Part shown: positions 15,864-18,999 of the stretch, in pieces
Position numbering within the stretch: the stretch's first letter is position 1
Layout: the number at the start of each line of letters is the position of its first letter
Notes under the pieces: generated by a model
Told to the model about the DNA's origin: nothing
What the model saw: only the letters and a program-made list of their open reading frames with translations
Database searches by the model: none
Translations under genes and position numbers: made by a program
Origin: Microbacterium terricola
GTDB taxonomy: Bacteria > Actinomycetota > Actinomycetes > Actinomycetales > Microbacteriaceae
Direction of reading: 5' to 3'
Length of the DNA: 64,000 bases
Assembly (NCBI RefSeq): GCF_027943945.1
Contig: NZ_AP027141.1
Span: 248,001 to 312,000, forward strand

Positions 15864-17237
15864 TCAGCGGACGAGCGCCTGGTCCTTGCCGGCCGCTTTG
15901 GACGAGTACATCGCGTCGTCGGCACGGTTGAGCAGGGCGTCTGCCGTCGGCGGCGATCCGGCGTCGGGCGAGTACACCGACGCGCCGACGCTGATCGACA
16001 GTTCGAGCGCACCGTGGGCGGTCGCGATCGGCTCGCGGGCAAGTTGCAGGATGCGCTGCGCGATCGTCGTGGCCGCGACCGTGTCGGCGGCCGGGCAGAT
16101 CGCGACGAACTCGTCCCCGCCGATCCGTCCGACCGAGTCGCCCGTTCTGACTCCGTCACGGAAGCGCTCGGCGAGGGTGCGGAGCACCTCGTCGCCCGTC
16201 GCGTGACCGAAGGCGTCGTTGACGCTCTTGAAGTCGTCGACGTCGACGAAGATGACCGTGAGCGGCTCGCCCGCCTGGGCCGCAGCATCCAGAGACGCCT
16301 CCAAGGTCTCGGTGATGGACGAGCGGTTCGCGATTCCGGTGAGCTGGTCGTACCGGGCCATGTGCTCGAGATCGCGCTGCAGGCGCACACGCACCAGCGT
16401 CTGTGCCGCCTGCCGGCCGAGTGCCTGCTGCAGCTCGAGGAAGCCGCGGTCGAACTCCCGTGTGCGTCCGAAGAAGCAGACCAGCAGGCCGATCGTGCGG
16501 TCCTCCGCGGAGAGGGGGGTGACCGACATCGCCTCGAGGCGCGCGTCGCGCAGCCCGGCGGCGAGCTCGGGGAACGTGACGTCGGCGTCGTCGGCGGTGA
16601 TGACGATCTCGCGGTCGGTGGCGCGGATGGACGGGATCGGGGCGACCACGCCCCAGAGCGGGTTGGTTCCGGAGACGGGCTGGAGCACCCCGTCGTCGTC
16701 GATCAGCAGGACGGATGCCGCGGTGGCGGCGAACGCCTCGCGGGCGACGCGCACGACGGCGTCGCCGACCTCCACGTCGCTCGTGCTCACGCCGAACGCC
16801 GTCGAGATGTCGTGCATGATCTGCAGGCGCTGGCCGGACAGCTCCGCCGATCGTCGCGCCCTGAGCAGGTCCTGCTCATAGGCCAACCGTTCCGTCGCGT
16901 TGAAGACGGCGCTGTGAACGAGCGGGGTCTCGCCGGTGTCGACCACGGCGGAGTTCATCAGGATCGGGATGGCGGTGCCGTCCGTGGCGACCATCGTCAG
17001 CGCGACCTGCTCCGCGCGCCCCTGCAGGAGCAGGACCTGGCTGTGCCGGGTCTCCAGGAAGATGCGGCTGCTCGGGTCGAGCAGCGAGGCGAGGCTGACC
17101 CCGCGCACATCGCTCTTCGTGCGCCCGAGCCACGCCAGCAGTGTGTCGTTGGCCTCGACCACGATGCCCTCCGTCGTGGTCGTCAGCAGTCCGCACGGGG
17201 CCCGGTGGTAGCGGGTCTCGTAGGGATCAGTGGTCAC
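15864..17237 (-). CDS. PAS-GAF-GGDEF diguanylate cyclase
   Basis: A 457-residue soluble sensor that should make cyclic di-GMP from two GTP. An N-terminal PAS domain (about 8-115: CGLLTTTTEGIVVEANDTLLAW onward, with DGTAIPILMNSAVV), a helical linker, a GAF-like domain (about 145-285: VVRVAREAFAATAASVLLIDDDG), then a GGDEF domain from DQLTGIANR. The active site RIGGDEFVAI is intact (GGDEF 373-377), and an RTGD inhibitory I-site lies 5 residues before it, so product feedback is expected. It starts with GTG 17237 overlapping the hydrolase stop (GTGA), i.e. translationally coupled to an RsbQ-like protein. The longer upstream open frame is antisense-like to that gene and not used. Confidence 0.93.
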   Translation of the reverse strand: MTTDPYETRYHRAPCGLLTTTTEGIVVEANDTLLAWLGRTKSDVRGVSLASLLDPSSRIFLETRHSQVLLLQGRAEQVALTMVATDGTAIPILMNSAVVDTGETPLVHSAVFNATERLAYEQDLLRARRSAELSGQRLQIMHDISTAFGVSTSDVEVGDAVVRVAREAFAATAASVLLIDDDGVLQPVSGTNPLWGVVAPIPSIRATDREIVITADDADVTFPELAAGLRDARLEAMSVTPLSAEDRTIGLLVCFFGRTREFDRGFLELQQALGRQAAQTLVRVRLQRDLEHMARYDQLTGIANRSSITETLEASLDAAAQAGEPLTVIFVDVDDFKSVNDAFGHATGDEVLRTLAERFRDGVRTGDSVGRIGGDEFVAICPAADTVAATTIAQRILQLAREPIATAHGALELSISVGASVYSPDAGSPPTADALLNRADDAMYSSKAAGKDQALVR

Positions 17238-18046
17238 TGCAGTCCACGGCGGATCGCCTCGATGAGGATGTCCGGGCCGGAGAGCAGCGGGATGTGGCCG
17301 CGGGTCGGGATGGTGGTGAGGGTGCTGCCGGCGATGGCCCCGTGCACGTATGCACCCACCTGGTCGGGTGCGATCACGTCCTCCGTGCACTGGATGACAT
17401 GGGTCGGCACCGAGACGCCTGCGAGGTCGCGGCGGTTGTCGGACAGGAACGTGACGTGAGCGAAGTGCCGCGCGATCGTGGGGTCGGTGCGGCAGAAGCT
17501 CTGCGTGAGGTCCTCGCCCAGGTCGGGCCGCTCCGGGTTGCCCATGATGACCGGCGCCATCTGCGTCGACCAGCCGAGGTAATTCGCATCTAGCGCGTCG
17601 AGGAGTCCGTCGATGTCGGCCTTCGAGAACCCGCCGCGGTACTCGCCCTCGTCGACGTAGCGCGGCGACGGGCCGACCAGGACGAGGTGCGAGAACAGGT
17701 CGGGGCGACGGTTCGCCGCGAGGACGCCGATCATCGCGCTGACCGAGTGGCCGACGAAGATCACGTCCGTCGCATCGAGTGCGTCGAGGATGTCGAGGAC
17801 ATCGGATGCGTATCCGTGCAGCGAGTCGTACTTGCCACGGTCGTACGCGGTCAGGTCCGATTCTCCGGCGCCGACGTGGTCGAACAGCACGACCCGATGG
17901 TCCGCCTCGAAGGCCGGCGCCACGTGACGCCAGGAGAGCTGACTGCAGCCGAAACCGTGGGCGAACACGATCGTCGGGCCGGCTGCATCGCCGGTCACCG
18001 TGACATTGTTGCGCTGAAGAGCCGGGTGTATGCCGACAGATGTCAC
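17234..18046 (-). CDS. rsbQ: RsbQ-like alpha/beta hydrolase (signal-generating partner of the PAS sensor)
   Basis: A 270-residue hydrolase closely resembling Bacillus RsbQ and the KAI2/D14 receptor group. The catalytic triad is complete: Ser101 (FVGHSVSAMIG), Asp223 (CTEDVIAP) and His251 (TRGHIPLLS). Other RsbQ-type stretches are VLFDHVGAGESDL, LFSHLVLVGPSPRY and FCRTDPTIARHFA. In Bacillus RsbQ is needed for energy-stress activation of the PAS-PP2C phosphatase RsbP; here the coupled downstream gene encodes PAS-GAF-GGDEF instead. I infer that the hydrolase makes or delivers a small hydrophobic ligand to that PAS domain. ATG 18046 is favoured, with GGAGCACC just upstream. Confidence 0.9.
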   Translation of the reverse strand: MTSVGIHPALQRNNVTVTGDAAGPTIVFAHGFGCSQLSWRHVAPAFEADHRVVLFDHVGAGESDLTAYDRGKYDSLHGYASDVLDILDALDATDVIFVGHSVSAMIGVLAANRRPDLFSHLVLVGPSPRYVDEGEYRGGFSKADIDGLLDALDANYLGWSTQMAPVIMGNPERPDLGEDLTQSFCRTDPTIARHFAHVTFLSDNRRDLAGVSVPTHVIQCTEDVIAPDQVGAYVHGAIAGSTLTTIPTRGHIPLLSGPDILIEAIRRGLQ

Positions 18047-18171
18047 GGGTGCTCCTGCCGCTGTGGGGGATGCGCGCCCGGTAGGCGCCCCCCTCTGGAT
18101 AGTAGAGGACGCGGGGCGGCATTCCCGCGGGAGCGGACACTACTCCTTTTGCGGATGCGCCGCTGACGGTT

Positions 18172-18999
18172 GTGTCGAGCAGGCGGAACGGGCTGACTGG
18201 CCGGGTGATAGACATCGATGACCTTGCCGCCGACCTCGCCGACGCCATCCGTGAGCGGGATGTCTTCGCGGCCTACCAGCCGCAGATCTCCCTCGACACC
18301 GGCCGCCCCGTCGCTGTCGAGGTGCTGTGCCGGTGGCAGCATCCGGTCATCGGCACGATCTCCCCGGAGACGTTCATCTCCGTCGCGGAGCAGACCGGTC
18401 AGATCCACACGCTCGGCGCCCTCATGCTCGGAGAGGCGCTGGATGCCGCGGCCGGCTGGCGTGCCGCGGGCAGCGACATCCAGGTCGCCGTCAACGTCTC
18501 GCCGCTGCAGATCGCCGAGCCGGCGTTCCTGACCCACCTCGAGGGCGAGCTGCGCCGGCGCGAGCTGGACTCGAGCGCGCTCATCCTGGAGATCACGGAG
18601 TCGCTGCCGCTGGTCGGCTCGCGTGCGGTCATCGACCTGCTCCGCGCCATCCGCACGCACGGCGTCGGGCTGTCGCTCGACGACTTCGGCACCGGCCATG
18701 CCTCGCTGGAGCAGCTGGAGAGCCTGCCCCTCAGCGAGGTGAAGCTGGACGGCTCGCTCATCCGCGACGGCGATGCCCATACGGATGCGGCAGTCCGCGA
18801 GGTCATGACCGTCGCCCGCGAGCGCGGTGTCCGGATCGTCGCCGAGGGCATCGAGACACCCGCACACCTCGCACGGGTCGTGGAACTCCGCTGCGACAGG
18901 GCGCAGGGCTACTTCATCTGCCGGCCGCGGCCGAAGGCCGACATCGACCGTCTGCTGGAGCGAGGGTCAGAGGTCGCCCAGGGGTTCCTCATCGTCTGA
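18172..18999 (+). CDS. Stand-alone EAL-domain c-di-GMP phosphodiesterase
   Basis: A 275-residue EAL protein with no sensory or GGDEF domain. All metal and catalytic positions appear intact: EVL (50-52, in place of EAL), Asn in VNVSP, Glu in EITES, the Asp pair in LDDFGTG, Lys in EVKLD, Glu in VAEGIE and Gln in AQGYF, ending in RPRPK. It should linearise c-di-GMP to pGpG. It is divergent from the RsbQ-like/cyclase pair with a 125-bp shared control region, so synthesis and breakdown genes flank one promoter region. GTG 18172 or GTG 18205 may be the start. Its last 33 bp overlap the convergent 82-residue gene. Confidence 0.9.
   Translation: MSSRRNGLTGRVIDIDDLAADLADAIRERDVFAAYQPQISLDTGRPVAVEVLCRWQHPVIGTISPETFISVAEQTGQIHTLGALMLGEALDAAAGWRAAGSDIQVAVNVSPLQIAEPAFLTHLEGELRRRELDSSALILEITESLPLVGSRAVIDLLRAIRTHGVGLSLDDFGTGHASLEQLESLPLSEVKLDGSLIRDGDAHTDAAVREVMTVARERGVRIVAEGIETPAHLARVVELRCDRAQGYFICRPRPKADIDRLLERGSEVAQGFLIV

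Follow-up and report, generated by a model that had tools for sequence, protein, structure and literature searches.

What does an RsbQ-type hydrolase do when its gene runs directly into that of a diguanylate cyclase, and what is the role of the EAL phosphodiesterase gene that faces the pair? The question is raised by a locus of Microbacterium terricola (contig NZ_AP027141.1), in a genome made of one single contig of 3.25 Mb. We analysed a window of 64,000 nucleotides (positions 248,001 to 312,000 of the contig), and all coordinates below are those of the window. The hydrolase gene (17234..18046, reverse strand, 270 residues) begins with GTG, has AGGAG 5 bp upstream, and encodes the triad Ser101-Asp223-His251. 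The next gene (15864..17237, reverse strand, 457 residues, also with a GTG start) encodes a predicted PAS-GAF-GGDEF diguanylate cyclase, and the two genes overlap by four bases, the GTGA at 17234-17237, which holds the TGA stop of RsbQ and the GTG start of the cyclase. Across an intergenic region of 125 bp (18047..18171), a divergent gene (18172..18999, forward strand) encodes a predicted stand-alone phosphodiesterase of cyclic di-GMP (c-di-GMP), with 275 residues and an EAL domain. A first-pass annotation, made from the letters alone, had described this same layout, and it stands. We consider it likely that these genes form an RsbQ-PAS module with a diguanylate cyclase as output, in a form proper to Microbacteriaceae that often keeps an EAL gene nearby; RsbQ would gate the synthesis of c-di-GMP and the EAL enzyme would reset the pool. 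This reading rests on the conservation of the pair and of the catalytic triad, the PAS residues that were kept, the helices joining the domains, the distribution of the EAL gene, and the homology with RsbP. The genes, their intact active sites, the conservation of the pair, the association with EAL, and the confident fold of the cyclase monomer are established.

The pair is the firmest part of the argument. Loci were chosen by their similarity to the window's RsbQ (E-value limits of 1e-40 in the genus and of 1e-55 in the order and the phylum), in genomes that are samples of these groups. At these limits, relatives of RsbQ are found in 23 of 198 genomes of the genus, 37 of 297 of the order, and 23 of 396 of the phylum (the window's own genome is counted here and in the tallies below). 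They provided 87 stretches with flanks of up to ~5 kb on each side, shorter at contig ends (e.g., L164, L206, and L215), to which we added the best 80 of 560 RsbQ loci from named genomes and the window itself. These 168 rows included 8 duplicates, leaving 160 distinct loci. A PAS domain encoded on the same strand, recognised with a profile built from these same loci, begins at most 600 bp downstream of RsbQ in 157 of the 160; the others are L130, where a GAF-GGDEF protein lacks a recognised PAS, L133, and L165. Such a pattern led us to reject a chance adjacency of a lone hydrolase and a cyclase. The first-pass annotation had named a lack of conservation in relatives as a result that would refute it, and the pair proved strongly conserved. 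The outputs are diverse: GGDEF alone in 55 loci (51 with a GAF match), PP2C phosphatases in 62, fused GGDEF-EAL proteins in 22, histidine kinases in five, and 16 unassigned. Within the genus sample (198 genomes), all 23 RsbQ-bearing genomes have a GGDEF output. In six of these (L098-L103) the RsbQ is distant, at 44-48% identity, and is paired with a PAS-GGDEF protein; these genomes lack any EAL match and represent a second lineage of the module. As for the fused GGDEF-EAL class, the canonical motif is found in none of the 22 proteins, which have AGDEF (11), SADEF (6), SGDEF (4), or GADEF (1) in its place (e.g., L115, L119, L122, and L131). Since some variants of this kind retain activity in other proteins, we do not claim a loss of activity. 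Judging from these sequences, RsbQ may control a phosphodiesterase in such loci.

The hydrolase itself is of the RsbQ type. Its best relative of solved structure is the RsbQ of Bacillus subtilis (1wom, 3.5e-89), followed by plant D14L/KAI2/D14 entries (8vcz, 4.3e-63), and the best entry beyond the RsbQ/KAI2/D14 group reaches only 4.9e-11. At the alignment positions of Ser101, Asp223, and His251, all 161 sequences (the 160 loci and 1wom) have S, D, and H. Both the identity and the complete triad had been read correctly in the first pass. The window's RsbQ shares its hydrolase family with the plant butenolide receptors KAI2 and D14, and by this family resemblance it could be a butenolide receptor. 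The plant proteins signal by protein contact, and their partners are MAX2 and SMXL proteins, not PAS cyclases. A 2024 paper, to go by its title, reportedly deals with butenolide perception through RsbQ in B. subtilis, so the question of the ligand is no longer wholly open in that species. RsbQ relatives are also found on 67 plasmid records (11 of Streptomyces, others including rhizobia; 24 predicted conjugative), and the RsbQ of a metagenome-assembled genome of Aeromicrobium (L228) is very near that of Cryobacterium sinapicolor (L224; path of ~0.09), which reflects either transfer or a binning error.

The partner has three domains that score above the Pfam cut-offs: PAS_9 (residues 14-115), GAF (158-281), and GGDEF (294-452, 4.5e-42). 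It carries the GGDEF motif and the RxxD inhibitory site (I-site), in line with its class, where GGDEF-only proteins have the motif in 54 of 55 cases and RxxD in 54 of 54; the first-pass annotation had likewise noted both as intact. The AlphaFold2 model of the monomer, computed with 37 sequences, has a mean predicted local distance difference test score (pLDDT) of 90.9 and a predicted template-modelling score (pTM) of 0.57, so the relative placement of the domains is uncertain. All on the reverse strand, it orders the N-terminal PAS (residues 6-113; 16899..17222), a helix of 36 residues that is a candidate coiled coil (115-150; 16788..16895), the GAF domain (154-262) with a second helix leading towards the cyclase domain (264-295; together 16353..16778), and the GGDEF domain (15882..16358). 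Within the PAS, the helix of residues 55-72 bears Phe60 and Arg64, approximately one turn apart.

Is this wiring new? The first-pass annotation knew of no description of it, and this claim fails. Nadezhdin, Brody and Price (2011; PMC3183031) described 45 adjacent pairs of RsbQ and RsbP-PAS genes, with a PPM phosphatase, a histidine kinase, or a diguanylate cyclase as output. A categorically new wiring is therefore rejected. The diguanylate cyclase modules of that study resemble ours in the adjacency of the RsbQ and PAS genes, the N-terminal PAS, the GGDEF output, and the helical linker. They differ in their phosphodiesterase domain, which, where mentioned, is attached behind the cyclase as a fusion (3 of the 45 proteins), whereas here it is encoded in a separate and mostly divergent gene. 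Also, the main text of PMC3183031, figures aside, does not contain the word GAF, and the window's cyclase has this domain. In 36 of the 45, a stretch of 21 or more residues that could form a coiled coil was reported on the side of the output; the candidate counterpart here is the predicted helix of residues 115-150, which leads to the GAF domain first. The comparison with the RsbQ-RsbP pair of B. subtilis gives a similar picture: the hydrolase gene lies directly upstream of that of a protein with an N-terminal PAS and the triad is the same, but the output is GGDEF instead of a PPM phosphatase, a GAF domain has been added, and there is a separate EAL gene. In MtG of Moorella thermoacetica, an RsbT/RsbU-domain GGDEF protein cited in PMC12143880, a general-stress partner also controls a GAF-GGDEF cyclase via the N-terminal domain; in contrast with our system, this partner is RsbT and not a hydrolase, and the sensor domain is RsbU-N and not PAS. 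In the texts retrieved on RsbQ with GGDEF, EAL, or c-di-GMP, we found no description of a stand-alone EAL neighbour or of the Microbacteriaceae variant. Hence, the class has been known since 2011, and what is new is the addition of GAF, the change of a contact residue in the PAS, and the frequent vicinity of a separate phosphodiesterase.

How might such a module work? By analogy with B. subtilis, from which the intermediate steps are carried over, a small lactone- or ester-like molecule would be bound, and probably hydrolysed, in the Ser101-Asp223-His251 pocket of RsbQ. RsbQ would dock on the PAS helix near Phe60 and Arg64 of its partner, a PAS-GAF-GGDEF protein acting as a dimer. From there, the change would travel via the 36-residue helix, the GAF domain, and the second helix, and the GGDEF domains would be brought into an active dimer, with the RxxD site limiting the product by product inhibition. 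The divergent EAL enzyme would degrade c-di-GMP and so set the off state. The ligand, the docking, the dimer, the direction of the effect, and the joint action with EAL all have this conditional standing. An AlphaFold2 complex of RsbP and RsbQ, presented in PMC12143880 (which cites the 2011 study), places RsbQ between the PAS domains and the linkers.

Two models were put forward in PMC3183031: a product delivered to the PAS, or a hydrolase acting as the sensor and signalling by contact, in which case the product is not strictly needed. The first-pass annotation had favoured the former, i.e., a hydrolase-derived molecule gating the cyclase. Of this proposal, the link by gene order and the conserved pair stand, whereas it is not new and is one of these two models. 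We regard as possible, although on the unlikely side, that the product of RsbQ is a ligand of the PAS, or an aid to its sensing, and that the PAS is the sensor gating the cyclase. Ligand binding is common among PAS folds, and every aligned sequence has an intact triad. In B. subtilis, mutations of the triad give a null phenotype (PMC3183031); according to the same paper, RsbP-PAS has yielded no ligand. An intact active site may also serve binding alone, and the present computations do not separate the two models.

The register of the PAS was taken solely from the residue numbers in PMC3183031. That paper studied nine diagnostic PAS residues: in B. subtilis, the changes L48A, F55A, Y59A, and E72A give null phenotypes, and F55A and Y59A disrupt the interaction with RsbQ in yeast two-hybrid. 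In this numbering, the window's PAS retains C10, L13, L48, F55, and P86, and its Phe60 and Arg64 align with F55 and Y59 of RsbP. It also has Arg at position 53 and Leu at position 56, which fit the consensus classes as we read them from the legend in that paper. Arg at position 59 is found in 47 of the 51 PAS-GAF-GGDEF proteins and in L247, making 48 loci, and all 62 phosphatase partners have His; Arg64 is invariant in an alignment of 37 rows (A1) drawn from the same loci. The 48 Arg-bearing loci, among the 160, correspond to a single clade of RsbQ, with a support of 95 in the Shimodaira-Hasegawa-like approximate likelihood-ratio test (SH-aLRT). Residue 35 of RsbQ tracks Arg64 best, being Ser in 44 of the 48 loci vs. 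Asp in 84 of the 95 where the PAS has His. We rejected this coevolution as evidence of docking: on the tree of RsbQ, Arg64 has a single origin, one change that provides one independent pair, and because of this the correlation of Ser35 and Arg64 does not show a contact.

The same clade concentrates the EAL genes. The EAL protein of the window matches Pfam EAL (residues 20-252, 1.1e-62), and every catalytic position checked in its sequence is complete, so the earlier view of a catalytically complete enzyme withstood the alignment of metal-binding and catalytic residues. Counting neighbours that score more than 60 bits to this protein, with gaps taken as the distance between domain matches, a stand-alone EAL gene is present in the flanks of 29 of the 48 Arg-clade loci and of none of the 112 others (Fisher test, 1.8e-19, a value that ignores kinship). 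In terms of output, these are 28 of the 55 loci of the GGDEF class and L247, vs. 0/62 with phosphatases, 0/22 with fused proteins, and 0/5 with kinases. This synteny backs the link with EAL that had been suspected at the start. Of the 29 genes, 21 are divergent from RsbQ at a distance of up to 600 bp, three lie upstream on the same strand, and five lie downstream. Of the 29 proteins, 18 were flagged by a strict pattern of the motif, and the alignment then placed their catalytic positions as complete: metal-binding and catalytic residues are all present in the 28 full-length rows (28/28), the Phe of DDF is replaced by Tyr or Val in 9 of the 29, and the following Thr varies. Across the genus, EAL matches occur in 31 of 198 genomes, including 17/17 of those with a close RsbQ, 14/181 of the others, and 0/6 of those with a distant RsbQ. 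In L085, L087, and L088 the EAL gene is replaced, on the divergent side of RsbQ, by another GAF-GGDEF gene, whose GGDEF motif is intact and whose N terminus looks PAS-like by eye.

A number of observations weigh against the proposed module. First, the window's PAS has Arg64 for Y59 and Gln77 for E72, i.e., it differs at two of the four positions that are null as Ala in B. subtilis. At position 72, the PAS-GAF-GGDEF class has E in 48 of 51 proteins, with Q (the window), D, and A once each. At the conserved P62 the window has Gln, as seen in 16 of the 51. With departures at Y59, E72, and P62, the docking of RsbQ may differ or be weakened. Second, PMC3183031 gives RsbP with Y59A at 50-60% of the wild-type level, and likewise with L48A. 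Third, 19 of the 48 Arg-clade loci have no EAL in the flank, and four loci that do not belong to the clade (L105, L131, L132, and L165) have a fused GGDEF-EAL gene close by, which shows that c-di-GMP genes as neighbours are not confined to this clade. Fourth, the gaps between RsbQ and EAL share no motif beyond the shuffled level: we rejected the top 8-mer, present in 5 of 21 regions, because shuffles gave a mean of 4.43 and a maximum of 6. In the 125-bp gap of the window, no consensus promoter or terminator was found and a sigma-70-type scan was empty. Strings resembling TATAC or TATAA recur by eye in the gaps of L104, L182, L175, L209, and others, and are non-significant by shared 8-mers. Fifth, the window's genome has no PilZ match, in a search of effectors that covered PilZ only.

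Could EAL be a mere neighbour, kept nearby by shared descent while RsbQ and the cyclase act alone? We find this unlikely. In a tree of the 29 adjacent EALs and 23 non-adjacent ones (all of the latter from one genus), adjacency requires few changes (5, vs. a shuffled mean of 17.2), and 19 adjacent EALs from several genera cluster together with no non-adjacent copy among them (support 88/76, not starred), which means that much of the adjacency is inherited; the Arg-clade loci that lack EAL point the same way. However, L177 and L183 are in supported groups with non-adjacent copies, apart from the group of 19, and the window's EAL and four other divergent ones of Microbacterium fall within a supported set that holds 13 non-adjacent copies. 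We had to reject the idea that the window's EAL is closest to other adjacent ones, since its nearest relative is the non-adjacent L255. L092, L093, and L097 form a group of their own, with an unresolved place. The varied placement of the gene and the lack of stand-alone EALs at phosphatase-output loci also argue against mere neighbourhood.

It is very improbable that RsbQ is a metabolic hydrolase tied to the cyclase by a shared stress regulon and not by contact, with the cyclase sensing otherwise via PAS and GAF: the PAS does deviate at two functionally important positions and GAF domains can bind ligands of their own, but the adjacency holds across four output types, the sort of pattern from which the 2011 paper argued for one sensing module.

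The RsbQ-PAS module with a cyclase output thus remains our preferred reading, and the rest of the genome gives it its setting. There are three GGDEF matches and a single EAL match, the one beside RsbQ, and no match to the HD_5 profile. More speculatively, and with considerable doubt, the module might be the main c-di-GMP node in Microbacteriaceae, reading one signal, possibly butenolides from plants or microbes, with a dedicated EAL that clears the product and a docking by Arg64 and Ser35, instead of His and Asp, that would insulate it from phosphatase-type pairs. With a cyclase linked to RsbQ, two further GGDEF proteins, and a lone EAL enzyme, the genome offers a small system: the signal of RsbQ could be read as c-di-GMP, and the separate EAL gene is a natural off-switch to test.

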